Below are positions 3,316 to 19,273 of a DNA stretch of 29,971 bases, one piece after another. Each line of letters opens with the position of its first letter. Position 1 is the first letter of the stretch. The DNA is from a virus, in IMG/VR virus record IMGVR_UViG_3300023174_000492, positions 1-29,971 of that record, one strand, 5' to 3'. The notes beneath the pieces are model-generated. The model made no database searches. It had not been told where the DNA came from and saw nothing but the letters and a program-made list of their open reading frames with translations. The translations under genes were made by a program, and so were the position numbers.

Positions 3316-4395
3316 TTATCCCTCAAGGATTGACCAAGCCGCCCCAGTTGTTGCCCCTAACCAATAAACTGCACCTGTCGGGCAGAACGAATCAAATACA
3401 ATGCCAGACCCAGCGGATAGTTGTATTCCTTGCGTGGTTGTTGGAGAAAAACCGATGCCCATCGTCACGCTTCCGATTGAAATGTTTTGAGCAAAGAGAT
3501 ATTTGCGGGAGGTGTTGGTGACTGCGGTGGTAATTTGTGCCGTGTTTGCGGTTGTTACAGAACCAAACCGTGTTGTTAATGCTCCCGATGGATTTGCTGA
3601 AATTGATGCTGTAACAGAACCAATCTGGGCTGTGCCAGCCGCCAAAGCGGGAAGCGAGCCAATAGTGACGCTGTTACCTACCGTAACGGAGGAGATGCTG
3701 ATGGGAACCGTCCCGCTGATGGATGCGGTGACAGAGCCAATTTGGTTTGTGCCAGCCGCAAGACTTGGTAGCGAGTTTACTGTGACGGTGGTGGATGTAA
3801 GCGAAACTGGTTGCGTAGTTTGCCAAAATGTTCCGCTAACTGGAACCGTGCCGATGATAGATGCGGTGACGCTTCCGATCTGTGCCGTTCCTGCCCCGAT
3901 GGTTACCGTTCCCCCGCCAATAGTAACTACGCCGATGCGGGCTGTGCCGGCCGATATATTAGATGTAATTTGACCATTGATCTGTACTTGCCCGATTAAA
4001 TTAGAGCCTGTTGGTAGGGATGGAAGTGAATCTACAGTTACAGGAAAAGTACGATCAATTCCAAAAGTGTTCCCATCTCCATCTTGAATGCCAGCTATTA
4101 CATTTCCAACATTTACAGTGCCAGCAATCGTCTGGGTGGATGGGAAGTTTGAGATGGTGACTGCTGAGAATGTAACGGCTTGCGATGCTGGAAAATTACT
4201 GACTGTTACTGTTCCAGTAATTGCCGCACCTACTGTTACAGTTACGTTCTCCAACGCACTCAGGCTGTTGGCATCCAATGCCACGGTGACTGTATTGGCC
4301 ACGGTGACGGAGCTGGCCACGGCGCTTGTAAGTACGGCACTGGTCAGGGTGACGACGGTGGGTGTCTCAGAAATTGCTAGGTAGATATCAGCCAT
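3316..4395 (-). CDS. Repetitive beta-rich tail fibre protein
   Basis: This 359-aa protein is made largely of Thr/Val/Ser-rich beta strands with an internal repeat. SLPSLAAGTNQIGSVTASIS (208-227) and SLPALAAGTAQIGSVTASIS (247-266) are near identical. Partial copies lie at 123-141 (SLPSLPTGSNLIGQVQING) and at 168-180 (AGTAQIGSVTASI), the latter followed by SGTFWQTTQPVS. Two SNFP elements (66-69, 82-85) lie earlier. Such repeats build elongated beta-helical or triple-stranded shafts. The C-terminal 65 residues (from TSRKYLFAQNISIGSV) look like a compact beta-sandwich of the kind that caps phage fibres. The gene lies one base from the next fibre gene. A shaft role is inferred; repeat number may vary between relatives. 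Confidence 0.6.
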   Translation of the reverse strand: MADIYLAISETPTVVTLTSAVLTSAVASSVTVANTVTVALDANSLSALENVTVTVGAAITGTVTVSNFPASQAVTFSAVTISNFPSTQTIAGTVNVGNVIAGIQDGDGNTFGIDRTFPVTVDSLPSLPTGSNLIGQVQINGQITSNISAGTARIGVVTIGGGTVTIGAGTAQIGSVTASIIGTVPVSGTFWQTTQPVSLTSTTVTVNSLPSLAAGTNQIGSVTASISGTVPISISSVTVGNSVTIGSLPALAAGTAQIGSVTASISANPSGALTTRFGSVTTANTAQITTAVTNTSRKYLFAQNISIGSVTMGIGFSPTTTQGIQLSAGSGIVFDSFCPTGAVYWLGATTGAAWSILEG

Positions 4396-4402
4396 ATATT
4401 TG

Positions 4403-4735
4403 TTAAGGGACGGTTATGCGTGGGCTTAATGTCACCACGCCTTCAAGCAATCGGGTGTAGGTACCGCCAGCATTCATCAGTAAATCGTACTTTCCTCCGC
4501 TGGTAGGAACGACGAGGGTGGCGGCCGCTGACAGCGCCATGGTGAGCTGGCCACCGGCCGCGCTAGTCACGGTGCAGGTAAAGGCTGTGGCCACTGTCCC
4601 ACCTGGCATCTGGCGGATCTGGGCGGTGAACGTACGCCCCGCAATGTTGATCGGCGTAGATGTATCGGTGGTAAGAAAGAGCGTGCGGGAGAAATCTGTC
4701 CCCTGCTCAATCGTGATGTCGTAGGAGGCGGCCAT
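4403..4735 (-). CDS. Small beta-sandwich tail-surface protein
   Basis: This 110-aa protein opens with ASYDITIEQGTDFSRTLFL and continues with INIAGRTFTAQIRQMPGG and GGKYDLLMNAGGTYTRLLEG. This pattern (I-x-x-G-x-D/T-F near the start, then G-x-x-x-x-x-Q-I-R, then Y-D-L) is common in small phage proteins encoded among fibre genes, where it forms a beta-sandwich used as a connector or adaptor. It sits four bases after the 390-aa gene. The exact role is unknown; the tail-surface context is the main support. Confidence 0.5.
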   Translation of the reverse strand: MAASYDITIEQGTDFSRTLFLTTDTSTPINIAGRTFTAQIRQMPGGTVATAFTCTVTSAAGGQLTMALSAAATLVVPTSGGKYDLLMNAGGTYTRLLEGVVTLSPRITVP

Positions 4736-4738
4736 AGG

Positions 4739-5911
4739 TTAGACGTCAGGTTCGCGTACCACTTCGCTAGGCACGTTAATGGTGAAGGTATCGGAGCTAA
4801 AGGTGCCACGGGTGGTCGTCCACTGGATCTCGCCCAGGAGAGATTGATCGGCGTTGGATCCGGCTAATAGATTGGCGGCTTGTGCGGAAAGCAGATCGTC
4901 GTCCGATGCGGTCACGGTGATAGCGTAGTAGACGTCGCCAGAAACAGTGACTGTGCTGACGGTGGCGGCCGACCAGAAGTGATAGGGTGACGTGTTATTT
5001 GACGAACGAACGGCCAGCTTAATGTCTGTCGCCTGTGGATTGATCCCGGATGTGCCGTCGTGAAAGAGAATTGCGAAATTAATTGTATCGGCAGGACGGA
5101 GCTGGATGGTGCCGTGACGATGCGTGACCGCACGAGTGCCGAGATTTACCTGGAGATCTGTCAGGTACCAGTAGGAGTTATCTAGCCAAGAAAACATATT
5201 ACTAGATCCACCTGATGTCACCGCAGAAACAGTTAGAGCGGTTGGGATGATGACGTTAATTGTATCGGCTTGTATTGAGCTTGCCTCAGTTAATCTGCGC
5301 ATTATTTTTATATAATACGTGTCGGTTTTTGTAATAACCGATGAGTTGAAGATTGTTTCTGGCAATCCTCCGCCTAATGGCGGCCGCACATTTGTGGTAG
5401 AAAGTTCGTCTGAGTCTTTGTTTAGGATCGATATTTGCCAGATCTCTGGCGGATAATCAGGAGCAAGTGCTGTATTTATATTTGCCAGTGAAATTAAAAC
5501 AGGGCAAATTGAAGATGATCCAAGAGATGTGCATGTAATTGTTATATTTCCAGTTGATCCTTGGGAAACAGTCCAAGACCCTCTATCGTTAAAATCTGCT
5601 GCACTTGTTCCAACAACACCCACGGTTGCTCCGCTGGTCATGTCTCGAACCCTAAAGAATGAAGGATAAGTAGCCGCAAATGATGTAGTTACATTTACGG
5701 AATAACTGCCATAATACACTTCTGTTGGAATTAGCGCTGTGCCGCCTGAAATAGCTGAAACATAGCCAGCCGTAACGCCAACGCTGCCTCCTGCGCATGT
5801 TGATGAAGCAAGTAGATTGCCAGCAGTTGAGCCAGTTACAGACAACCACACCGCGCTTGTATAATCTATATTTGACTTATTTGCGTAAATTGCAGAAACG
5901 TTTAATGGCAT
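4739..5911 (-). CDS. Tail-surface or fibre protein of unknown function
   Basis: This 390-aa protein is mostly beta and rich in Ser/Thr/Asn/Ala. The N-terminal 150 residues (starting PLNVSAIYANKSNIDYTSAV) contain strand-turn-strand patterns such as GSWTVSQGSTGNITITC. The C-terminal half is less repetitive (SWLDNSYWYLTDLQVNLGTR, then HRHGTIQLRPADTINFAILF) and probably holds separate domains. There is no membrane segment or catalytic motif. It begins five bases after the large 795-aa gene and ends four bases before the small beta-sandwich gene. The part of the gene coding for the N-terminal half is more AT-rich than the rest, consistent with patchwork exchange. I do not recognise a family. Confidence 0.45.
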   Translation of the reverse strand: MPLNVSAIYANKSNIDYTSAVWLSVTGSTAGNLLASSTCAGGSVGVTAGYVSAISGGTALIPTEVYYGSYSVNVTTSFAATYPSFFRVRDMTSGATVGVVGTSAADFNDRGSWTVSQGSTGNITITCTSLGSSSICPVLISLANINTALAPDYPPEIWQISILNKDSDELSTTNVRPPLGGGLPETIFNSSVITKTDTYYIKIMRRLTEASSIQADTINVIIPTALTVSAVTSGGSSNMFSWLDNSYWYLTDLQVNLGTRAVTHRHGTIQLRPADTINFAILFHDGTSGINPQATDIKLAVRSSNNTSPYHFWSAATVSTVTVSGDVYYAITVTASDDDLLSAQAANLLAGSNADQSLLGEIQWTTTRGTFSSDTFTINVPSEVVREPDV

Positions 5912-5915
5912 AAAA

Positions 5916-8303
5916 TTACCCGATCACGATCTTGATCTGATCCGCATCGCCATAAGGCCGCATGGCGTAGCCAACCCAACCGCGTGCGTCGCCCTGGGTA
6001 TCAATGACGTCGAAGTTGGCCAGCCTGCCGCGCAGAATGAAATTGCGCGAGCTGGGCTTGCCTGTAGTCGCACTGGCCCAGATTCCGTAGGTCATGTAGT
6101 TGGCATCCATCTGGGTGGCGCTAGTCGCAAGGATCTCCACGCCCATGCCATGCTTCACCGGCTCATTCGTCACGATCAGTTGCTGTGACAGGATCGGCGT
6201 GCTGTTCCAAGTGATGTCAGAAATGTTGCCTGTCTGGGTGGCGGGTGAGGCCACGGTGGTAATCGTTCCCACGTCCACAATGCAGTACCACTGAGCAGTG
6301 GCGTTGGCGGCCTTGCTTTGTACGTTTAAATTCCACTGCAGCTTGGCACTGGTGCCTGCCCGAAACAGTTTGTCGTTAATTGGAATCTCAAACAGGCTGG
6401 CTTCATACGCCTTGGAATAGAACGTCCGGCCGCTGCTGTAGTTGTCGACCTGGTAGACAAGGCCACGAGTGCTTTCCGCGCCAATATAGGCTACGCCTGT
6501 GGGCAGACGTGAGCCGGGGATAAGGCCGATCCGTGGCACGAGGATGTTTAGCCCAGAGGTGTAAGCTCGCACGATGTCGACGGTTGTGACGGTAGGCAGT
6601 GCCACGCTGGCGGCTGTGCCAACGGTGACGGATAGCGCTTCCAGTAGTTGCGGAGCTTGAACGGATGGAACGGAGGAAATTTGCAAAATAGAATCTGTAG
6701 ACGCCCAAGTGCCCAGGCCGTTGGTAAACATAACAGCTTGCCGTGCCGAGACAGGAATTTCGTAAGGTTGCGTAACGCTAGAGCTAGAGCTGATACCCGT
6801 GGCGGGCAGAATATCCTCCACAGCGGCAAGGCGAGTGCCCAAGGAATTAAGTTGATCCTGCAGGGATACCACCTGGGCAATCGTGTGAGTATGAGCTTGG
6901 AACGCACTTGTCGGCCCAGCGCTGGAGATCATCACGGCCCAGCCTTGAGTCGGAACTGTGCCAATTAATTTTGTGACAATTATTGACTGACTCGTCGAAC
7001 TGCTGACAGAAATGTCTCCAACGCCTACGTATGGAGATGTCTGCTGTAGTATAGCCCCACCGGCAACATTTTCCCTAACAGTTACGTGAATCGCTTCTGT
7101 TCCAAGGTTGTGGGCGATCGTCCACGGGCCGGCGCCTGTCACCACTTTGGTGTAGCTCTGAATTCCAGTGATGACTTGATCTGTCGTGAAAGGGATATAG
7201 TTGACCGGCTGCGGTGGGTTAAGCCAGTTAATTGATTGAGCGGCCGCTAGGCCAGTCCACGCACCGTCGGCCTGCACGGTCAAATTCTGCTGAAATACGG
7301 TCACATACTGGACGTTGGGCGTGGTTACTGTGCCGTAGTTAATTCCTACTTCGCAAGTCAGCGGGTGCGTAATTTCATAGTCTCCACGTAATGCGGCCAG
7401 CATGCCTTGGGTGTTTAGATCCAGGTCAAAGGTAACGTCGCCTTGTGGTGAGATGGGCACAGCCACCGTGAGCAGGCTCTGTGTTGCCCCACTCATCGCC
7501 CCGGCAAACTCGATGTCGGCGGTATAGTTTTGCGGGTTGGTAACTAGGAAAATCTCTCCTGCCCCCACAGTAATGCAGGAAGTCATTAAGGCGGCTTGTA
7601 TCTCAGTCGCTCCATCATCCTTGTTCAGCAAGCCAGTGCGAGCCGTGCCGCGATAGATCTGGTAGGTGGTATCAAACGCAGGCGGTATGTAGAGCCGCTG
7701 CACCTCGTTCACAAACACGCCCGTGGTCGGATCGCTGTAGCCCGTAACAACGCGGGTGATAGTAGGAGCAGGCGGAACGATCAGACCGAATGCGCTGGTA
7801 TAAGCCAAAGGCGACTGCATTGGTCGTAGCTCTTGGTAGAATGTGTTGTTTGCGGAATAGCTAGTCACCCGGACAAAGCTGTCTGGCGTGAGGTTGTTTT
7901 CAACGATGGTGATGCCGCTGGTTGTAACCCAGTTGGCCGTCCTGCCGACGATGTAGGATCCTTGATCTTCCGTAACGCTCCAGCCGGTAGCGGCTGAGAT
8001 GCTGTTTAAGACGGCGGCCACGCTGGCGGCCGTAGATCCTAGGGTAATGGCACTGGATGTGACTGCGTTGACCCGCACTTTGAACGTGCCGGCCGTAGGC
8101 GCAACATCCACCGGGCCATAGCTAAGGCGGGCGGAGTAGATGGAAGGCGCGGTGACTGTGGTGGTGTTGTTGGATGTCTCGGTAAGGCGCACCGCAAGCG
8201 TGAACATATCGCCCTGCACGACTGTGGGCAGGGTAATTGAGCCAGGCTCAATCGTGTAGCTGGCCGTTTTCTTGGAAATGTTACCGTAAAGGAGTGTGGC
8301 CAT
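5916..8303 (-). CDS. Large tail fibre or baseplate-attached protein
   Basis: At 795 aa this is the largest protein in the window. About residues 1-380 consist of consecutive beta domains. A block WTIAHNLGTEAIHVTVRE (394-411) follows, an element often seen in phage fibres. Then comes QAHTHTIAQVVSLQDQLNSL and onward (about 469-497), a short coiled coil that would trimerise the protein, and finally a C-terminal beta domain (about 600-795). This order of shaft, coiled coil and tip domain fits a fibre attached to the tail end. It lies two bases after the 64-aa gene and heads the fibre block. The structural role is well supported; which receptor it binds, if any, is unknown. Confidence 0.6.
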   Translation of the reverse strand: MATLLYGNISKKTASYTIEPGSITLPTVVQGDMFTLAVRLTETSNNTTTVTAPSIYSARLSYGPVDVAPTAGTFKVRVNAVTSSAITLGSTAASVAAVLNSISAATGWSVTEDQGSYIVGRTANWVTTSGITIVENNLTPDSFVRVTSYSANNTFYQELRPMQSPLAYTSAFGLIVPPAPTITRVVTGYSDPTTGVFVNEVQRLYIPPAFDTTYQIYRGTARTGLLNKDDGATEIQAALMTSCITVGAGEIFLVTNPQNYTADIEFAGAMSGATQSLLTVAVPISPQGDVTFDLDLNTQGMLAALRGDYEITHPLTCEVGINYGTVTTPNVQYVTVFQQNLTVQADGAWTGLAAAQSINWLNPPQPVNYIPFTTDQVITGIQSYTKVVTGAGPWTIAHNLGTEAIHVTVRENVAGGAILQQTSPYVGVGDISVSSSTSQSIIVTKLIGTVPTQGWAVMISSAGPTSAFQAHTHTIAQVVSLQDQLNSLGTRLAAVEDILPATGISSSSSVTQPYEIPVSARQAVMFTNGLGTWASTDSILQISSVPSVQAPQLLEALSVTVGTAASVALPTVTTVDIVRAYTSGLNILVPRIGLIPGSRLPTGVAYIGAESTRGLVYQVDNYSSGRTFYSKAYEASLFEIPINDKLFRAGTSAKLQWNLNVQSKAANATAQWYCIVDVGTITTVASPATQTGNISDITWNSTPILSQQLIVTNEPVKHGMGVEILATSATQMDANYMTYGIWASATTGKPSSRNFILRGRLANFDVIDTQGDARGWVGYAMRPYGDADQIKIVIG

Positions 8304-8305
8304 GG

Positions 8306-8500
8306 TTACTTTGCGGGAGGCGTGTCAATCCCTGTCTCCTGCTCTGTAAAGCCCTTAAAGAATGAGGGGTCGAACTGCACGCCGGCAGCTATGGGATACC
8401 ACGGCCCTGGCTCAGTCAGTTGAACGACGCCCAGCTTCCGCAGCCTGCGATTTTCCTCGATAATCTTTTTGCGACGCTCTGCTGATTTGTCTAGGCTCAT
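8306..8500 (-). CDS. Small hypothetical tail-region protein
   Basis: This 64-aa protein has a strongly basic helical start, SLDKSAERRKKIIEENRRLR, then a Pro/Phe-rich half with VQFDPSFFKGFTEQETG. It overlaps the 343-aa gene by four bases (ATGA) and is followed two bases later by the large fibre gene, so it is clearly part of the tail transcript. Short proteins at this point may be adaptors or assembly factors, but no motif supports a specific function. I do not recognise it. Confidence 0.5.
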   Translation of the reverse strand: MSLDKSAERRKKIIEENRRLRKLGVVQLTEPGPWYPIAAGVQFDPSFFKGFTEQETGIDTPPAK

Positions 8501-9528
8501 ACGGCGTAGAACTTTCCTGCTAGGTTGCGTTGCTGGTAAAAGTCTAGGGCCGCTTGGGCAAAAAAGTTATTTTCAGCCAGAATATAGTCAAAGATCGGCT
8601 GGGCTACACCACCAGCTAGTGGAAGAACTAGGCTTAAAGGCTTAAATTCTTCCCGACGCTCAATCTGTTGGGTGGCGTGGACTAGGTTGTGATGGCAGTT
8701 GTATTTAATAAAGGGCTGCCAAGAGGCGAGGCTGGTAGGATCTAGTAGTGGCAGAACTGGCGACAGCAGATAGACGGTGCTTAAGTGCAGCCGATCTGTC
8801 GAACTGTCCACAAATCGTTGAAAGAACAAGTCGGCAAAGTTAGTGGTTTCAATAGGTACCACATACTTGGGCAAGGCAGTGACGGTCGCCTCGCGATCTG
8901 TGGGTGACAGGAATCCAGGGTTAATGCTGACCAACGTGCTATCGATTGATGCGGCAGAGATAGAGATTGAGTTGGTTAGCGATACTCGCGGCTGATTAAG
9001 CACTATATCGCAAGCCAGCAGCAGGCGTTTTGTTTCTGCCTTTTCGGCCAGCAGGTTTGTGTTGGCGTCCGACACGCCGAGCCTCTTAAAAAAGTCTGGC
9101 ACTTTCTCAAAAACTCCCGTCACGTTGCCACTGCCAGCGTTGCCCGATATGGACTCTGGATCGGCGTCAGATCCTATCTTGCGAAACGACAGCTTTACGG
9201 CGGCTTGCTCGTCCAGATAGATGTCCACCCGATCTGTCTTATTTGGTGCAGGCTTTTTTGCCTCAATGTTTTCCAGCCTTACACGCTCCTGTGCGGGCAG
9301 CGGAGCGTCCGAGTATTGCATTGTAATTTTTGCGGGGAATCCATTGACCAGCCCTGGCGATAAGGACGCCCGCCAGTAGGATATATTTGCGATGGGATCG
9401 GTATAATACTGTGCCTGAATCTGCCAAGGGTGCGGCCTGCTACCTGCTCCAGTGTAATCGAATTTGATAGGCAGATACTGCTCCACCTTGTGCAGTAGCT
9501 TTTGCCATAGCTGGGATGTGTATTTCAC
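8497..9528 (-). CDS. Tail-tip region protein of unknown function
   Basis: This 343-aa protein is soluble with mixed alpha/beta character and no transmembrane segment. It opens KYTSQLWQKLLHKVEQYLPI. The last third contains KYNCHHNLVHATQQIERREE (about 275-294), a His-rich stretch before a helical end. Its position between the tape measure and the fibres is where lambda-like phages encode tail-tip proteins (gpM, gpL, gpK, gpI, gpJ types), but I see no NlpC/P60 motif, iron-sulfur cysteine cluster or gpJ-like repeats. It overlaps its neighbours by four bases on each side, suggesting stoichiometric expression with them. Virion component is an inference from context. Confidence 0.45.
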   Translation of the reverse strand: MKYTSQLWQKLLHKVEQYLPIKFDYTGAGSRPHPWQIQAQYYTDPIANISYWRASLSPGLVNGFPAKITMQYSDAPLPAQERVRLENIEAKKPAPNKTDRVDIYLDEQAAVKLSFRKIGSDADPESISGNAGSGNVTGVFEKVPDFFKRLGVSDANTNLLAEKAETKRLLLACDIVLNQPRVSLTNSISISAASIDSTLVSINPGFLSPTDREATVTALPKYVVPIETTNFADLFFQRFVDSSTDRLHLSTVYLLSPVLPLLDPTSLASWQPFIKYNCHHNLVHATQQIERREEFKPLSLVLPLAGGVAQPIFDYILAENNFFAQAALDFYQQRNLAGKFYAV

Positions 9529-10115
9529 GCAGGCCAGTAGATCACCCGGTGCGATCCGTTATGAAAATAGGCACGCACTTGCAGATTGTGAGTGACGAAC
9601 TGAATAAAGTTATTTTTACGCAAGTAAGCCAGAGGGATTAGGCCAGAGGTGGTTCTGTCTTTTTCAGCGTAGTTTGCGCTGCCTGTGCGTGGGATCTCAC
9701 TGGGTTTTCTGCAAACGATCTCGCTGGATTTTAGCGTGAATGTTTCGGTAAATGTAACAAGGGCGCATACTAGGATAGGGCGTTCTGCCGGTAGTTTTGC
9801 TGGCGGTGCTGGCACGCCGTCTGGGTCGACGATGTCTTGCAGTTGGCCTGTGCTGGGTTTGATCTGCGGCAGCTTGCCGTTGATGTAGCCCTCGCTAATG
9901 CTGAAAAACTTTGTCCCGTTAAATCGGACTTGCAGTGGGGTAGAAATTGTCGGCGGCCGATCCACCATGGAAACATGCTGTCCGTTTGGGGTTGTGTTAA
10001 TTAAGACCCGATCGTCTACAGAAACGAGGCGCTGGGAATCAATCCACGCGACCAGCTTTTTGAACTTAGGCAGGATCTTGTCGCCCGATTCCGCCTTCAG
10101 CTCGTTGGGGATCAT
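9525..10115 (-). CDS. Tail-tip region protein of unknown function
   Basis: This 196-aa protein has an N-terminal helical part (IPNELKAESGDKILPKFKKL), then beta-rich segments, and a Pro-rich linker around DPDGVPAPPAKLPAERP (about 98-114). It ends in a hydrophobic stretch FIQFVTHNLQVRAYFHNGSH. There is no signal or membrane segment. It overlaps the preceding and following genes by four bases each (ATGA type). Like its neighbours it sits where tail-tip and baseplate genes are expected. No motif allows a function to be assigned, and it does not resemble a known lambda, HK97 or T5 tail protein to my eye. Confidence 0.45.
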   Translation of the reverse strand: MIPNELKAESGDKILPKFKKLVAWIDSQRLVSVDDRVLINTTPNGQHVSMVDRPPTISTPLQVRFNGTKFFSISEGYINGKLPQIKPSTGQLQDIVDPDGVPAPPAKLPAERPILVCALVTFTETFTLKSSEIVCRKPSEIPRTGSANYAEKDRTTSGLIPLAYLRKNNFIQFVTHNLQVRAYFHNGSHRVIYWPA

Positions 10116-10903
10116 GTGGCCCCTGGTACAGTGCCCTTTTCGTATAAGCCGTCAGCGACACCCTTTGAATCCAGCAGGACGTACTCTTGCACGACTTGCC
10201 ATGCCTCACCCTGTCTGCTGACGGCTGGAGCCTGCATCATCCAGCGCCGAGGGATTTCCTTGCCGTCTTTATCTTTCTCACCCTTTGGAATGGGGATGCC
10301 CGCTGGCAATTTATCTACGACCCGGCCTGCGGTATCCCAAATGTTAGGATTTACATTTTTTGTGAAGTAGGTGTGGCGTAAAGTTAGCGTTACTTCTTTG
10401 TAGCGGGTAACGCCAAACATGGGATTAGGAACAGTATTGCCAGATCCTAGCCCGCCACCTGATGTCGGGGTGTAAGTAGGCGGCCATTTTGCAAATCCAT
10501 CTGGCGTAAAGTACCCGCCAAAATCTACAGAAAGTTTATCGATGCGGGGATGCAGCTCGATCGGCTTACTTTCAAAAGAACAGAACATTTCAAACGTGCC
10601 CTTGACGCCAGACTGCAGCCAAACGACTCCGCCTGTATCGCTTGTTGAGGCTTCCGTCATCGCCTCGTAGGTGACCGACTGCTCGTAGGCTGTGTCGTTT
10701 ATCCTGGTATAGCTAATGTTTGTAGCCTGATAGCCATCTATTCTTGGCGCAGTTTGAAGCTGTGCGAAATCAGTAACAAAATACTTTTTATTGATGGTGG
10801 TTTTGCCAGTGGCTTGAAAGCTGCCACCACCGCCCAGCATCTCGACACCCGTGTTTGGGACGGATGATCCGCTGCCACTGCTGCCGCTGCTGCCCCTAGC
10901 CAT
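10112..10903 (-). CDS. Tail protein encoded directly after the tape measure, function unknown
   Basis: This 263-aa protein starts with a flexible Gly/Ser segment (ARGSSGSSGSGSSVPNTG) followed by a beta-rich body, for example KEVTLTLRHTYFTKN. The centre has another Gly-rich loop (PTSGGGLGSGNTVPNP). Its start overlaps the tape-measure stop by one base (TAATG). Genes in this place often encode the distal tail protein or an adaptor, which is the best guess here. The flexible N-terminus is odd for a distal tail ring protein. There is no catalytic motif. Confidence 0.45.
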   Translation of the reverse strand: MARGSSGSSGSGSSVPNTGVEMLGGGGSFQATGKTTINKKYFVTDFAQLQTAPRIDGYQATNISYTRINDTAYEQSVTYEAMTEASTSDTGGVVWLQSGVKGTFEMFCSFESKPIELHPRIDKLSVDFGGYFTPDGFAKWPPTYTPTSGGGLGSGNTVPNPMFGVTRYKEVTLTLRHTYFTKNVNPNIWDTAGRVVDKLPAGIPIPKGEKDKDGKEIPRRWMMQAPAVSRQGEAWQVVQEYVLLDSKGVADGLYEKGTVPGAT

Positions 10904-12273
10904 TAGCTAAATACCCCGGCGTTTTTGATAAGCAGATCCAGCTTATCCAGTACGCCTTGTAGGTCGGGTGGGTTTTCTAGTCTCACAGGTTGCGTGCGTT
11001 GTGCCTCCGTGCTGGATGGGATGTCACGTAGCTGGCTTCCTAGGCCGAATCTCTGCATCAATGCCTCGCGAGGGTCAAAGTCGGCGGCGTTGCCTCTTTC
11101 TTTGTTTATTCCCTGCAATCTCTCTAATCTGAGTTTAGCTTCATTAAGTTTATTTAAATCGCCGCCGCCGGCAGCTTTTATTGCGTCGGCTTCAGCGTCA
11201 GCCAAATCTTTCGCAACTGCACGACGTAGGCCATCAATTTGACCGCTAAGAGATGCCATCTCTACAGTTGCGGCAGCGCGGTCTTGTCCCTCGACCATTT
11301 TAGATATTTTTTCCCGTAGGGCTGCTTCTTCTTTAAGCAACTCGACCAGCTTATCACTATCTGAAAGAGAATTTAGGTAGTTTTGCCTAAGAATCTCGTC
11401 TGCCCGCTCATATGTTTTCTGTGTTTTTTCTGCCGCTTTTTCATATGCTTTGGCTGCTTTTTCAGTTGCATCTGTATCGGCGCCACCTCCAGCGACGCCA
11501 TCCATGTCTCTAACGCTATTTCCAGAACCAGTTGTGGATGATTTTATTTGATCAAAGAATTGAATCAGCGGCCGTATGGCAGCAAAGCGGGCATATGCTT
11601 CTACTGCATCCATAATTTTGGAAACAGCCGTTCCAAAAACTATTGTCACAACATTCTGAAACGCTTTTAATGCATCGGAGGCTGCTGAAAGCTGGGCAAT
11701 AGTTTGATTTGAAAATACCCCCATAGCTTGCCCATTGGCTGAAATCACTTCCGGCCCCATTCTTAAAGTCTCCATCAGCACGGCCGCACCCTTACCAGCC
11801 AGCTCTTGTGCTATCGCAAAATCCCGCATGCCAAGCGTGCCAGAGGCTACTGCCTTGGATAAGGCCATAAATAGATCCTGTGGGGTCATTCCCTGAAGTT
11901 GCTCTACGCTTAAACCAATTTTATTGAAAGCCTCTGCCATTTGCTCATTTCCGCCAATGGCTGCGCCCGCGTTCTTCGCCAGCTTATTCATAGCACTAGC
12001 CACATCCTCTAACCCTGCTCCTGAAGTGCTGGCCGCGTTTCCTATCTCTTGCAGGCTACTGGCAGCGACTCCAAACCGATTGGCTAAGTCTTGAAGCTGG
12101 TCGCCCTTGTCTATGGCATTGGAAAAGCCTTGTATGATTTTATCAAAAGCAAAGGCGCCTGCCAAGATGCCGCCAACCTTCATCCCAAACCCTTTGACAG
12201 AGTTTTCCATGGAGGCCAGCCCGGTGGTAAATCCAGATTTATCTACCCCTACTTTTACTTTCAGATCAGCCAT
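10903..12273 (-). CDS. Tail tape measure protein
   Basis: This 456-aa protein has the usual tape-measure features. The start ADLKVKVGVDKSGFTTGLAS (2-21) resembles the conserved head of many tape measures. A hydrophobic stretch VGGILAGAFAFDKIIQGFS follows, then a long helical body with Ala-rich repeats (QDLANRFGVAASSLQEIGNA, then LAKNAGAAIGG). A charged coiled-coil region (AYEKAAEKTQKTYERADEIL and onward) lies in the second half. Tape measures span the tail tube and set its length. At the usual 1.5 angstroms per residue, 456 residues predict a tail of about 70 nm, short for a siphovirus. The gene begins two bases after the preceding stop. Confidence 0.85.
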   Translation of the reverse strand: MADLKVKVGVDKSGFTTGLASMENSVKGFGMKVGGILAGAFAFDKIIQGFSNAIDKGDQLQDLANRFGVAASSLQEIGNAASTSGAGLEDVASAMNKLAKNAGAAIGGNEQMAEAFNKIGLSVEQLQGMTPQDLFMALSKAVASGTLGMRDFAIAQELAGKGAAVLMETLRMGPEVISANGQAMGVFSNQTIAQLSAASDALKAFQNVVTIVFGTAVSKIMDAVEAYARFAAIRPLIQFFDQIKSSTTGSGNSVRDMDGVAGGGADTDATEKAAKAYEKAAEKTQKTYERADEILRQNYLNSLSDSDKLVELLKEEAALREKISKMVEGQDRAAATVEMASLSGQIDGLRRAVAKDLADAEADAIKAAGGGDLNKLNEAKLRLERLQGINKERGNAADFDPREALMQRFGLGSQLRDIPSSTEAQRTQPVRLENPPDLQGVLDKLDLLIKNAGVFS

Positions 12274-14266: not shown

Positions 14267-14665
14267 TCAACTAGGCGTGACGAAGGCGGTAAATTTCACC
14301 GAATCCTCCATCACCTTGTCGTTGCTGCCAGTGCTTTCCTCACCCAAGTAACCACCCATAAGAGTGGCGCCTGCGATTGTGGTTACGGCCGTCAGCTTGG
14401 TATTGAGCCAGTCAAAGTTAGTCCTGTGAGCCGTCACGGTGCTGGCCACTTCCAGCGGCGTCATAATCGAACAAGTGAAAGTAACCTTCCGGGTGGTAGC
14501 TAAAGATCCCTCCACAACTGGCACGCTAGACTCTGCGTGAACGATGCAGGCTGGGAGCTGTAACTCCGCAATCCTGTGCCCTGCTTGAACGTATAGCCCG
14601 GCTGGCTTACTGGCTGTGGATAGGTAGGCGGCTAGGCCGTCCTCCGCTGCGAGTCTTAAACTCAT
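14267..14665 (-). CDS. Tail completion or tail terminator-like protein
   Basis: This 132-aa protein is read from ATG at 14665, which forms an ATGA overlap with the stop of the connector gene. The open frame continues 45 codons further upstream, but that part is Arg-rich shadow sequence. The start SLRLAAEDGLAAYLSTASKP and the pattern ACIVHAESSVPVVEGS followed by strands KVTFTCSIMTPL resemble small phage proteins that close the tail top (lambda gpU-like, alpha helix followed by a beta sheet). Its place between the head-tail connector and the tube-like genes agrees. The assignment rests on order and fold impression. Confidence 0.5.
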   Translation of the reverse strand: MSLRLAAEDGLAAYLSTASKPAGLYVQAGHRIAELQLPACIVHAESSVPVVEGSLATTRKVTFTCSIMTPLEVASTVTAHRTNFDWLNTKLTAVTTIAGATLMGGYLGEESTGSNDKVMEDSVKFTAFVTPS

Positions 14666-14970
14666 CGCACGTCCTCTGGATCTGCCAGGATAAGAGTCGT
14701 CACCCCTTGATCGGATTGTACGCCGGTAAGTCTTTTGGGTGAACCGCCCACCGTCACGATCGTCATTAGCGCGGGCAGGCTGACTGCGGCCGTCAGGCAA
14801 ACGAACTCCGCATTCTGTGGATTTACGAATCCGCCCATGCCCAGCTCTGCGGTTTGTTCGCTAGGTGTGTAGACGCCACGGACGGCGAGGCCGGAGATGG
14901 TGGCAGTCGTCGGCATAGCCGCAATCATATCGGCCACCCCTGTGGTCATTAGGGTTTGGAGTTCGGTCAC
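14662..14970 (-). CDS. Head-tail connector protein, possibly gpFII-like
   Basis: This 102-aa protein starts TELQTLMTTGVADMIAAMPT and has a beta-rich rest with VRGVYTPSEQTAELGMGGFV and ending LTGVQSDQGVTTLILADPED. Small proteins with a short N-terminal helix, a long loop and a beta barrel, ending in a residue pattern like V-x-x-D-x-x-x-x-x-x-L-x-L, are typical of head-tail joining (lambda gpFII type). Position supports this: it follows the capsid and glycosyltransferase block and precedes the tail genes. It overlaps the next gene by four bases. A 16-base gap separates it from the methyltransferase stop. Confidence 0.55.
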   Translation of the reverse strand: MTELQTLMTTGVADMIAAMPTTATISGLAVRGVYTPSEQTAELGMGGFVNPQNAEFVCLTAAVSLPALMTIVTVGGSPKRLTGVQSDQGVTTLILADPEDVR

Positions 14971-14986: not shown

Positions 14987-15538
14987 TCAAAGTTGCTTTA
15001 GCCAAGAGTTTTCTAGCGCTTCCACTTCGCCCATGGTTTGTTGCACGGCTAAATCCACCCCGCCCCAGCCGCACTGATAATCGTGCCCGCCGATCAGCCC
15101 GCCTTTTTTTACCTTGGGTAGCCAAGCCAAGATGTCCGCCTTCACGTTTTCGTAGTCGTGTGCGGCATCGATAAAGACGGAGTCTAGGCATTGATCGGGA
15201 AAGAAGTTGGCGCCCTTGAGGCTAGTCATCCGTAACGGCACGAGTTGGCGTGAGACTGGCTTTACGTTTGCTATGAACTCCTCGTATAACGTGCCGTTTT
15301 TAATGCACTCTTCGCCCGCGTGTTCCTTGCTACCCAGCCAAGTATCTACGGCGTAGATCTCAATCCGTGGCGATTTGTTCCAAGCCTCGACCAGCAGAAA
15401 CGCAGTAGATTTCCCCTTCCAGCTTCCGACTTCCACGATCTTACCATCCATAGGGCAATTAGCCACAAGGCGCCGGTACAGATCTGGAAAGCTAAACCAG
15501 TCCTCCCCGCCTATGTTTAAATGCTGTAGTTTTTCCAC
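14987..15538 (-). CDS. SAM-dependent methyltransferase, class I
   Basis: This 183-aa enzyme shows the Rossmann-type SAM site: motif I KIVEVGSWKGKST (33-45), an acidic second strand in IYAVDTW, and SVFIDAAHDYENVKADI, the post-motif region of the Methyltransf_24/TylF-like group that methylates sugars and other small molecules. I chose the GTG at 15538, which has AAGGA seven bases upstream. The open frame runs 23 codons further upstream, inside the preceding gene, but with no matching ribosome site. It overlaps the second glycosyltransferase by 22 bases, so the two are co-translated. Together they suggest a methylated sugar product. The substrate is unknown, and a virion or host-surface glycan is equally possible. 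Confidence 0.8.
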   Translation of the reverse strand: MEKLQHLNIGGEDWFSFPDLYRRLVANCPMDGKIVEVGSWKGKSTAFLLVEAWNKSPRIEIYAVDTWLGSKEHAGEECIKNGTLYEEFIANVKPVSRQLVPLRMTSLKGANFFPDQCLDSVFIDAAHDYENVKADILAWLPKVKKGGLIGGHDYQCGWGGVDLAVQQTMGEVEALENSWLKQL

Positions 15539-16191
15539 TTGGTTTCCTTGACCGTGGCCACGCGGGTGGCGTGTTGATGTTCTTTGTGAAATTCTGGCCC
15601 TGGACAAAACGTGCCGCCCTCTGCCCCGATGTTTTGAATGCGACTGACGTGCGGGAATAGTTCGCCCATGCCCGTGCTTTCACGCACCCGCTGAACGGAT
15701 CCGTCCCAGAAGTTGCAATCCCAGGCGGGAACGAGATGTCTTTCAAATCGATCGCGCCAGGTCGCCCATCCCCAAGGCGTGAACCAGTTTCTAAATCCGC
15801 TGGCGTCGTTCTCCGCATCACCGCCGTGTTGATTGTAGCCAGATACCGTTAGCACTTTTGGGCCAGCGTTTTGCCCTGCCCACTCAAACCAACGCAGGCA
15901 GTCTGGGCTGGGAACGGTGTCGTCCTCTAGGTGGATGTGGTAATCCGATTTTCTGAATCCGTACGTCATAGCGTACTTAATCGCGGATCCGCAGCCCATG
16001 TGACGATCTGGAATGTGAACGCCAATGCCGTGCCCCTTAGCAATTTCGGAAAGCTCTGCCGTCTTGTCCGATGGATCGAGAATGACAGTGATCTCGTACT
16101 CACCCACGCCGTCACACCATGCCAGTGCTTTCAACACCTTGGCAAAGTAGTCCGGCCGATTGTAGCCGGATATGGTAAGCGTCTTATCCAT
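15517..16191 (-). CDS. Glycosyltransferase, GT-A fold, family-13-like
   Basis: This 224-aa enzyme starts DKTLTISGYNRPDYFAKVLK, the first beta-alpha unit of the nucleotide-sugar site. It has the metal-binding acidic motif HLEDDTVPSPD (88-97) and the conserved FTPWGWATWRDRF (137-149), characteristic of small transferases related to the GNT-I/GT13 group. It would move a sugar from a nucleotide donor to an acceptor in the cytoplasm; it has no membrane segment. The start overlaps the stop of the large glycosyltransferase by eight bases. Catalytic motifs look intact, so activity is likely. The acceptor is unknown. Confidence 0.85.
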   Translation of the reverse strand: MDKTLTISGYNRPDYFAKVLKALAWCDGVGEYEITVILDPSDKTAELSEIAKGHGIGVHIPDRHMGCGSAIKYAMTYGFRKSDYHIHLEDDTVPSPDCLRWFEWAGQNAGPKVLTVSGYNQHGGDAENDASGFRNWFTPWGWATWRDRFERHLVPAWDCNFWDGSVQRVRESTGMGELFPHVSRIQNIGAEGGTFCPGPEFHKEHQHATRVATVKETKWKNYSI

Positions 16192-18331
16192 TTGCCTTCA
16201 ACAAGGCGTAGGCAGCCAGATTGCCGCCCGTGCCTTTGTTATTTTGCAAGGCGTCGGCGCCCAAGCCTTCCGGCCTAATTTTTAGAGAGTTGCTGCGGTT
16301 CAAATCGGGCGTGTTGCAGACGAGCGTAGCTGTCCCAGCCTTTCGCAGTTCCGTGCTCATCATGTAATCGTCAGCCAAAAACTTGGCACGAGCCAAGGGA
16401 CTCAGCCCAGCAAACTCACTGGCTGGAATGGCTGGCCACAGATCGGCCTTCGGCATATCCGAACGCCGACACATCACGCCGCCAAATCCTTCCAGAATCT
16501 CGGCATGGCCGCCGTGATCGGGTGCGATGGCGTAGCCGGTGGCGCCTGTCATAAAAAATCCGCAGACACCTAGCGCCGTTTTGGGTCTAGTTTCTAGTTC
16601 GTCGGCGAGTGCCTGCAAAAGCAGTGGGCTGTAGAGGATGTCGTCGTCCAGCCAGCAAATCTTGTCGTCGGGATCCCCGCCTACTTCCAGCGGGCCGATA
16701 AACTTAGTCGCAGGCCCGTAGTCTTTGGTTCTGTGAATTTGTAATTTACCAGCATTGGCCAGCGCCTGTAGCTCTTTTGGAATATCCCCAAAGCGTTCCC
16801 CTGTGCGTGCCAGCTTTTCAGGCACAGACAGAATGATCTGATCGGCTGGGCGAGATTGAGCCAGTAGGCTCTGGATCGTGGGCATAATCTTGCCGATGCG
16901 TGTAGGGGTGGTAGTGAGGCCGACGATGACGTTACCCTTGCGGTCAACTGGATCGGGCAGACGCACGGCTGCGGCTGGCAAAATATCTTGGGTAAGAAGA
17001 TCCACGTCCCATCGCAGTGATGGGCAAACGGTGTCGGAAGCACATTTTACAAATAGCAAAATCCTGCCCAGCGCCTTGGCTGTGGCCTCCTCCGCATCTT
17101 TTACAATGTGAATCCTTTTGCCTGCTACATCAGTGCCAGGGTCGGTAATAAATAAAGCCTGTATCGCTGCCGGATTGTCCGAGGTATCGACAAAAAATTT
17201 ATGTAACCTAAAGCAATCCATAAATGGCCCGTTAAAGACCATGGTGATTTGCCCCCAGTTTTGACGGAATGTTTCACGCACGCATCGATCCGCGTCTGCG
17301 GTTTGGCCGACGGCCCGCAGGCACTGTTCGATGAGCATTTTGGGCAGGTGTCCGTACCACTTGGCGTCTAAATTCCAGATCACGCCCTGCGGCCTGGGCA
17401 ACATTTCCACTAGGTTTAAAAGTCTGACGGCTTCGCTAAAATTGCCTTCTTCGATCAGGACGGCGGCAAGGTGACCGTATGCCTCCCTGCGTGTGGGGCA
17501 GAGGGTAATCCCGCGCCCAAGATATTTGCGCCTTTTGTTGTGATCGGCACACATTACCCCAGCCATGCAATAGAGCTGGTAGCGTTCGGTTTCGCCGAGG
17601 TCTGGATGTTCTAGCCCCAAAAGGGTAGGCCCGATCGATTCTTGATATGCTCCGCGCAAGAATCCCTCCTGCGCCAAATAGTACAGGTTCATGCCGGTAT
17701 GCTGTAGAAGCGTGCCTAGGATCCGCTTGTTGCGTTCGCTAGAGTTTTTCTTGCAGGTGTTAGGTGCGTGGATAACGACAAGGTGGTCGGCTAGTCCGAC
17801 GCCTAGGCCGGGCACTGGCTTTACCCTCTCGTGAACGGCTCGTTCCCAGATGGCGGGCAAGCTGCCGTCCGGTTGGCGGCGGAAGATTCTTTCTCTGCGA
17901 TTGTCCCGCATTCCGCTATTTTGCACATCGTAACGGGTTACAAGGATCTCCCAGCCTTCTTTGGCTTGTTCACGGGCGAGGACGGCGTCGCGATGTAGCT
18001 TGGCCTGGCCGGGATCCAGCAAATCATCCGCATCAAACCAGATGACGTATTTGCCTGTGGCTAGGCTAAAGGCTTTGTTCCTAGCAGCGGCAAAGTGATC
18101 GATATGAGGCCAGTCTGCGTTTTCGGGGGCGTTATGGTATTCCCCCCAGACTAAAGCCTCGCCAGCGGCCTCCTGCGCGCAAATACGCACACCCTGCGCA
18201 TCATTTTTCCCGCAAGCGGAGACGACAACGACTTCGTCCCATAGGCCAGCGCAGGAGTTAATTAAGCGGGAAACTAGCTCCCCTTCATTGGGGCCGACGA
18301 TTAAAGCAAGAGACACAAGGGGGGTATTCAT
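16184..18331 (-). CDS. Two-domain glycosyltransferase with TPR-like middle
   Basis: This 715-aa protein is read from ATG at 18331. The frame extends 16 codons upstream, but that part is the terminator hairpin of the capsid gene. Domain 1 (about 1-130) is a family-2 GT-A domain with NEGELVSRLINS, HFAAARNKAF and the metal-binding VIWFDADDLLDP (DAD at 100-102). The middle (about 200-400) is helical with paired-helix repeats like TPRs, for example LCPTRREAYGHLAAVLIEEG and NFSEAVRLLNLVE. Domain 2 (about 480-715) starts VIVGLTTTPTRIGKIMPTIQ and carries ICWLDDDILYSP (DDD at 562-564), a second transferase site. Two active sites in one chain fit stepwise building of a short glycan. It follows the major capsid gene directly, unusual for phages. 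Confidence 0.85.
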   Translation of the reverse strand: MNTPLVSLALIVGPNEGELVSRLINSCAGLWDEVVVVSACGKNDAQGVRICAQEAAGEALVWGEYHNAPENADWPHIDHFAAARNKAFSLATGKYVIWFDADDLLDPGQAKLHRDAVLAREQAKEGWEILVTRYDVQNSGMRDNRRERIFRRQPDGSLPAIWERAVHERVKPVPGLGVGLADHLVVIHAPNTCKKNSSERNKRILGTLLQHTGMNLYYLAQEGFLRGAYQESIGPTLLGLEHPDLGETERYQLYCMAGVMCADHNKRRKYLGRGITLCPTRREAYGHLAAVLIEEGNFSEAVRLLNLVEMLPRPQGVIWNLDAKWYGHLPKMLIEQCLRAVGQTADADRCVRETFRQNWGQITMVFNGPFMDCFRLHKFFVDTSDNPAAIQALFITDPGTDVAGKRIHIVKDAEEATAKALGRILLFVKCASDTVCPSLRWDVDLLTQDILPAAAVRLPDPVDRKGNVIVGLTTTPTRIGKIMPTIQSLLAQSRPADQIILSVPEKLARTGERFGDIPKELQALANAGKLQIHRTKDYGPATKFIGPLEVGGDPDDKICWLDDDILYSPLLLQALADELETRPKTALGVCGFFMTGATGYAIAPDHGGHAEILEGFGGVMCRRSDMPKADLWPAIPASEFAGLSPLARAKFLADDYMMSTELRKAGTATLVCNTPDLNRSNSLKIRPEGLGADALQNNKGTGGNLAAYALLKANG

Positions 18332-18349: not shown

Positions 18350-18377
18350 GCCCGGTGCACCCCCCGATGCACCGGGC
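18350..18377 (-). terminator. Strong hairpin after the major capsid gene
   Basis: The stem GCCCGGTGCA pairs perfectly over ten bases with TGCACCGGGC around an eight-base loop. In the minus direction it lies 20 bases after the capsid stop and is followed by TTTCCC, a poor T tract. It probably acts as a partial terminator or an mRNA 3' stabiliser. Either effect would raise capsid mRNA relative to the downstream glycosyltransferase genes. Confidence 0.75.
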
Positions 18378-18397
18378 AACCCAGATGATTCTCTAAC

Positions 18398-19273
18398 TTA
18401 GACCAAGCGAACCAGTGAGGCTGTCGATCCACGGCCACAGCCGTAGAGCAAGATGTAGGAACGGTTACGGGTTCCGAGGGTCGGGTTGTAAAACTCGCGC
18501 ATTTGCAAGCTCAGGCCGGACACGGGTTCCGTCACGTTTTCTACGCTGCCAGGGTAATCGCTGGGCACTTCGGGCAGACGAGCCGCCACCAAGAGCGCTT
18601 CCTGTTGAGCCGCGAAGCCTTTGCTGATCGCGGAAGGGAGCGAAGGATAGCTGAACACTTCGATGCCGTTGACGATTCCAACTGAGCCGGTGCGGATTGC
18701 GTCACCTTGGATCTGGGCGTTCGCCACGATCGAGGAGTCGTTGAGCAGGCTGGCTTTGTTGTTCGGGCTAACAATGGCGTAGCGGCTGGCGCTAGGCACT
18801 TTGTTGCTATCGAGCACCACACCCATTGAAACAATGGAGCGGTAGCTGAGAACGTCCGCCGCCACGGTCATCGTGGAGGTGTAGGACGCGGCGCTGATCG
18901 TGCCGAGCAAGGTGTCGACCATCTGTTTGCCCAAGGCGTGTGCGGCCGATGCGGCAAAGCGCTCGATCAAATTGATTGAGGAGCTGGCTGCTTCATCGTC
19001 GTTGATTGCCACGGTGCTATGAACAAGGTTGTTCAAGGTCACGATGCAATCCGTCTGCGTGCGGTCTCCCGCGACGTAGCCGGCTGTGGTGCTGTAACCT
19101 ACGGCAGTTGCCGCAGTAACTAGATGGGTGGTGATGACGTCGCCTTTACGGGCGGAAGCGTCGGAGAAGTCCGCGTAGGCGGACGTGAGGAAAGGGAATT
19201 GCTCGACGAGCAAGCTAAGTGCGCGTTGAGAAACTAACTTTCCGTTACTGACTGAGGCGAGACTATTTGCCAT
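18398..19273 (-). CDS. Major capsid protein
   Basis: This 291-aa protein follows the protease-scaffold gene, as capsid proteins do in HK97- and lambda-like phages. It has a strong ribosome site, AAGGA seven bases before the ATG. The N-terminus ANSLASVSNGKLVSQRALSL is followed by a long beta/alpha region. A segment IERFAASAAHALGKQMVDTL (about 104-123) resembles the spine helix of the HK97 fold, and the late part (YNPTLGTRNRSYILLYG) resembles the conserved axial and P-domain end. The protein is rich in Ser and Thr, which could serve as glycan attachment points given the transferase genes immediately downstream. I see no obvious processing site. Confidence 0.85.
   Translation of the reverse strand: MANSLASVSNGKLVSQRALSLLVEQFPFLTSAYADFSDASARKGDVITTHLVTAATAVGYSTTAGYVAGDRTQTDCIVTLNNLVHSTVAINDDEAASSSINLIERFAASAAHALGKQMVDTLLGTISAASYTSTMTVAADVLSYRSIVSMGVVLDSNKVPSASRYAIVSPNNKASLLNDSSIVANAQIQGDAIRTGSVGIVNGIEVFSYPSLPSAISKGFAAQQEALLVAARLPEVPSDYPGSVENVTEPVSGLSLQMREFYNPTLGTRNRSYILLYGCGRGSTASLVRLV

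Follow-up and report, generated by a model that had tools for sequence, protein, structure and literature searches.

To our knowledge, experiments have demonstrated glycosylation of the virion by phage enzymes in only a few phages, mainly of actinobacteria. In mycobacteriophages the glycans are placed on the C-termini of capsid and tail-tube proteins (Freeman et al. 2023, doi 10.1016/j.chom.2023.05.028, as relayed in PMC12619734), and PMC11256854 likewise covers the glycosylation of virions in mycobacteriophages such as Che8. The GT domain of Listeria GmaR modifies flagellin with GlcNAc, and recognition of flagellin has been proposed for its TPR domain (PMC9638930). Here we analysed a 29,971-base IMG/VR virus record (IMGVR_UViG_3300023174_000492, positions 1 to 29,971; hereafter the window), in which three genes for glycan-building enzymes lie between the genes for the major capsid protein (MCP) and head closure. 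The initial annotation had regarded them as a candidate for an undescribed system, an expression that proved too strong since phage-encoded virion glycosylation is already known.

A three-gene cassette in the head operon

According to family searches, the window belongs to a tailed phage whose terminase is of the gpA type and whose portal is of the lambda type. Reading along the minus strand, the portal and a probable protease/scaffold gene precede the gene for the MCP (18398..19273; phrog_283, 2.4e-24), a protein of 291 aa that is the candidate acceptor. Then come GT715 (16184..18331; Glycos_transf_2, 3.3e-10), a 715-aa GT-A/TPR/GT-A fusion; GT224 (15517..16191; PF03071, 1.3e-6), a GNT-I/POMGNT1-like GT-A glycosyltransferase of 224 aa; and a Methyltransf_24 SAM methyltransferase (14987..15538; PF13578, 4.2e-18), 183 aa long from the GTG at 15538. 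The downstream border of the cassette is the head closure Hc1-like protein (14662..14970), with a weak match to phrog_82 (1.2e-3), followed by tail genes including the tape measure. The coordinates, families and order agree with the earlier description of three intact genes between the capsid gene and head closure, and the coordinates also return the overlaps that it gave, of 8 bases between GT715 and GT224 and of 22 bases between GT224 and the methyltransferase gene. In 41/43 distinct junctions GT715 and GT224 still overlap by 4 or 8 bases, and dN/dS of the three genes ranged from 0.04 to 0.17 in the informative comparisons, indicating purifying selection; together, these results argue that the cassette is not a product of chance. 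No membrane segment was found in any of its three proteins.

The capsid gene and GT715 are separated by a 12-bp hairpin whose GGGG loop is invariant (18350..18377, minus strand; z -4.28). It was present in each of the 52 distinct intergenic sequences, a single one of which has a 5-base loop, and as a single copy per locus in the loci searched. All 12 distinct stems pair fully (100% of cells), changes on both sides were seen at 9 of the 12 pairs, and none of the slid controls came near the observed covariation. An Rfam search with the hairpin gave no match. Its identification as a classic terminator was rejected, as the stem is not followed by a T run. Verrucomicrobia phage P8625 also carries a hairpin after its MCP, of unrelated sequence, which makes an ordinary role in gene expression, outside the glycan system, probable for the hairpin; it may separate high expression of the capsid from low expression of the enzymes. 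The hairpin also bears on the start of GT715: an in-frame TTG at 18379 precedes it and is an unlikely start, and the location of the hairpin downstream of this codon supports the ATG at 18331.

A fixed neighbour and an exchangeable slot

The sequence set came from scans with GT715, GT224, the MCP and profiles of the MCP, to which the window and two phage records were added; it comprised 213 sequences, which formed 95 groups after merging those with 1 kb exactly in common. Adjacency was counted in those groups, the window among them, whose MCP had an identity of 54% or more and was followed by no less than 150 nt of sequence. In 73/73 of these distinct contigs GT715 was the next gene after the MCP, at a distance of 21-75 nt, and it was absent only in seven P8625-like groups with an MCP 27-28% identical. 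The initial annotation had named a location of the cassette outside the late operon in relatives as evidence against a virion function; this was looked for, and in all 73 contigs GT715 still followed the capsid gene directly. A search of 50,697 phage records gave no relative of GT715, and the second half of the protein had no match there even at E 1; GTDB genomes searched with the GT715 and MCP profiles for a host or prophage returned no relative. The nearest isolate MCP, that of P8625, is 28% identical, and at this level Verrucomicrobia are only a lead as to the host. It is worth mentioning that the TerL proteins of five relatives (L009, L011, L025, L036 and L044) are 28-33% identical to that of the window, though their MCP or tail genes are close; judging from the sequences, the packaging enzyme seems to have been replaced as a module in these phages.

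Beyond GT715 the gene content varies. In 48/48 contigs spanning GT715 to head closure, head closure comes after a slot that contains glycan-type genes only, in eight combinations. The combination of the window, GT224 plus Methyltransf_24, occupied 25 of the 48 slots; GT224 was accompanied by another SAM methyltransferase in 7, by a GT7-like/NAD-epimerase protein in 4 and by FkbM in 1. In 7 contigs the slot contained only an FkbM methyltransferase and in 2 only a GT34-like transferase, and single contigs carried a methyltransferase, a DXD transferase, GT224 and Methyltransf_24, or a transferase, a methyltransferase and an epimerase. This tally was counted by hand, and two methyltransferase types without a Pfam match were named by eye from their motifs; tblastn identified the slot genes of L065, L123 and L044 as FkbM-type methyltransferases. 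Genes of at least 100 aa of any other kind were not found in the 48 slots, nor were the flippase or membrane transferase families of gtr-type systems among their genes, and about 300 nt located 3' of the methyltransferase in five contigs contained no ORF of at least 100 aa.

Comparison of individual relatives points to recombination within GT715 itself. The first half of GT715, the MCP and the portal are 93-99% alike between the window and contig L002, whereas L010 is 98% identical to the window in the C-terminal half of GT715 and 95% in GT224, yet its MCP is only 56% identical. Likewise, in L028-L030 identity to the window is 93-94% for the C-terminal half and 89-90% for GT224, and 45-47% for the middle part of GT715 and 51-52% for hc1. 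A sliding identity profile of GT715 changes sharply near residue 450-465, placing a breakpoint inside the gene. In Mantel tests on 31 contigs, the P-values of which are approximate because few clades dominate, the C-terminal half of GT715 correlated with GT224 (0.54; partial correlation given the first half 0.49, p 0.001), and the partial correlation of the first half with GT224, given the C-terminal half, was 0.00. The first half correlated 0.76 with the distant hc1 and 0.50 with its own C-terminal half (bootstrap difference 0.25, interval 0.13-0.36), the opposite of the pattern expected from adjacency alone. At the sequence level, GT224 and the C-terminal half of GT715 thus appear to travel as one cassette.

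GT224 and Methyltransf_24 seem to be general glycan tools. GT224 relatives at 36-41% identity (L209-L211) sit elsewhere, on other IMG/VR contigs, next to a methyltransferase. One of them is found in L210, where a glycan cluster near RuvB (4335-11294) includes IMPDH-like and nucleoside deoxyribosyltransferase-like genes. Consequently, the argument for a virion function rests on GT715 and on its position.

Enzyme identities, putative pathway and acceptor

The earlier identification of a 715-aa protein with two glycosyltransferase domains, a 224-aa GT-A transferase and a methyltransferase holds. GT715 comprises a GT-A domain (residues ~1-190), TPR-type helices (~197-357), a middle domain and a second GT-A domain (~465-715). 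Its AlphaFold model has a mean pLDDT of 81.7 and a pTM of 0.59, a value that leaves the relative placement of the domains uncertain. A profile of 29 GT715 relatives matched GmaR over residues 4-210 (2.7e-9) and consensus TPR proteins over residues 215-328 (4.1e-11) in the PDB, so that the first half shows the GT2-TPR arrangement of a GT-A domain with a DxD motif followed by TPR repeats. With the whole model, the best Foldseek matches were the SunS/ThuS peptide glycosyltransferases (1.1e-13), followed by two-domain heparosan and chondroitin synthases; against the SunS equivalog TIGR04195 GT715 scores 12.2 bits, below the cut-off of 350. The catalytic acids D100, D102 and D103 are invariant and D562-D564 nearly so. 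Taken together, these matches suggest that the first half of GT715 resembles protein-glycosylating enzymes.

POMGNT1 and GnT-I are extenders of protein-linked glycans, and both were the top Foldseek matches of the GT224 model, the core of which is well predicted, in contrast to its C-terminal part. GT224 scores 27.9 bits against PF03071 (GNT-I), above the gathering cut-off of 25.4, and its EDD motif (E89 D90 D91) is invariant. The methyltransferase scores 66.6 bits against PF13578 (Methyltransf_24; gathering cut-off 26.3), with the motifs EVGSWKGKS and DAAHDY intact.

On these grounds we consider it probable that the three enzymes of the cassette assemble a short methylated glycan on a virion protein. 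The GT2 domain and TPR scaffold in the first half of GT715 would bind a virion protein and attach the first sugar, as GmaR does with flagellin; the second GT-A domain would add another sugar; GT224, being of the GNT-I/POMGNT1 type, would extend the glycan; and the Methyltransf_24 enzyme would O-methylate its end. As the genes downstream of the priming half are swapped between lineages, the outer glycan would vary while the priming step stays constant. The initial annotation had called a methylated glycan on the virion plausible, a proposal for which the fixed position (73/73), the protein-type first half of GT715 and the lack of membrane segments provide support, the substrate itself being inferred.

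The main alternative is a role in modifying a surface glycan of the host during infection, which would change the receptor or block superinfection in the manner of serotype-converting prophages. Phage-encoded transferases for serotype conversion are known from reviews, and a variable gene content would also suit variable host surfaces; however, the locus always lies within the late head operon, the three proteins lack membrane segments, none of the 48 slots has a flippase or membrane transferase family, and the GT2-TPR architecture points to a protein acceptor, which makes this alternative improbable. We judge still more improbable, to the point of being hardly credible, that the enzymes glycosylate modified bases of the phage DNA as a protection against restriction. 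Viral glycosyltransferases for DNA hypermodification do exist (Pyle 2024, as cited in PMC12619734), but no base-modifying enzyme (hydroxymethylase or thymidylate-synthase-like) was present among the annotated genes of the window, which may be incomplete and whose host could supply the base, and in the PDB the GT2-TPR half matches protein glycosyltransferases and TPR proteins. The position in the head operon, the protein-type primer, the lack of membrane segments and the glycan-only slot together favour glycosylation of the virion over both.

Within virion glycosylation, the MCP is the most likely acceptor in view of the gene order, a tail or other virion protein being also possible. No C-terminal extension of the kind reported to be glycosylated in mycobacteriophages was seen on the MCP. 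Covariation with the MCP as an indicator of the substrate was considered and found unsupported: distances of the first half of GT715 correlated 0.71 with those of prot, 0.76 with hc1 and 0.36 with the MCP (0.07 given prot), so the first half follows the backbone generally and the MCP is not singled out. That the glycan is carried by a tail or minor protein is a tentative variant, clearly the less probable one. These distances track hc1 and the tail genes more than the MCP, and a 263-aa protein encoded after the tape measure (10112-10903, minus strand) opens with a Ser/Gly-rich tract (MARGSSGSSGSGSS), with a variable N-terminus of the form MARGSSxSGGGGGS, that is conserved in kind while its letters vary across relatives; this tract is a possible glycan acceptor. 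Nevertheless, by gene order GT715 is tied to the capsid gene in all contigs, and the distance correlations are dominated by few clades. Near the tail fibre genes, the window also encodes (3316-4395, minus strand) a 359-aa Ser/Thr/Val-rich repetitive protein with TVTVSNFP and GSVTASI repeats, for which no convincing family match was found.

Relation to known systems

Bacteria swap O-antigen or flagellin glycans. There is, in our judgement, an even chance that these phages possess a modular virion-glycan locus, with a fixed priming GT2-TPR enzyme, a fused exchangeable second transferase and exchangeable tailoring genes, making the outer coat sugar swappable; if this is true, phages swap this sugar as well, altering particle recognition or adsorption. 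A whole uncultured family would then keep its priming enzyme fixed beside the capsid gene and exchange the outer sugars by recombination, and coated, variable particle surfaces would be a core trait of some environmental phages. The cassette would also represent an ordered, expressible four-step pathway in which both the acceptor and the function of the coat could be tested.

Like GmaR (flagellin O-GlcNAc transferase, PDB 22ao), GT715 has an N-terminal GT-A domain followed by TPR repeats, but GmaR continues into a C-terminal antirepressor domain (PMC9638930) and GT715 into a middle domain that precedes another GT-A domain. The SunS/ThuS chains matched are of 333-421 residues, that is, one GT domain plus helices, whereas GT715 is a two-GT fusion. 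GT224 shares the PF03071 family, EDD motif and fold of POMGNT1/GnT-I (GT13) and, unlike them, is a soluble phage protein.

A similar gene arrangement occurs in an unrelated podophage, Podoviridae sp. ctxSa4 (MW202718, from the Manatee Spring metagenome), in which a 761-aa GT2-TPR-GT1 protein is encoded two genes after the capsid gene, with more glycosyltransferases and methyltransferases further on, forming a parallel head-operon glycan island (L216, MW202718.1, 7354-17676). In contrast to the window, its capsid is SU10-type and its second GT belongs to the GT1 type; a relationship to GT715 is recognisable in the first GT domain alone (91.9% probability), and a search of IMG/VR with this podophage transferase gave no match. 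In a Manatee Spring siphophage (L215, MW202497.1, 3472-7791), genes for a GT2-TPR transferase, GroEL and another transferase separate terminase and portal.

The comparison with actinobacterial phages made in the initial annotation stands for the types of enzyme more than for their sequence. Che8 also encodes GT2 enzymes and Methyltransf_24, and its gp108 joins both domains; however, the hhalign comparison with gp108 gave a probability of 20% (E 0.0011) over only 30 residues around the DxD motif, no TPR domain was matched in Che8, unlike in GT715, and the Che8 genes lie near the right end of the genome and not in the head operon. In summary, GT715 and GT224 are phage-encoded glycosyltransferases, as in virion glycosylation of the mycobacteriophage type, and the locus differs from that system in having different enzymes, locked to the capsid gene, and an outer half that is exchangeable.
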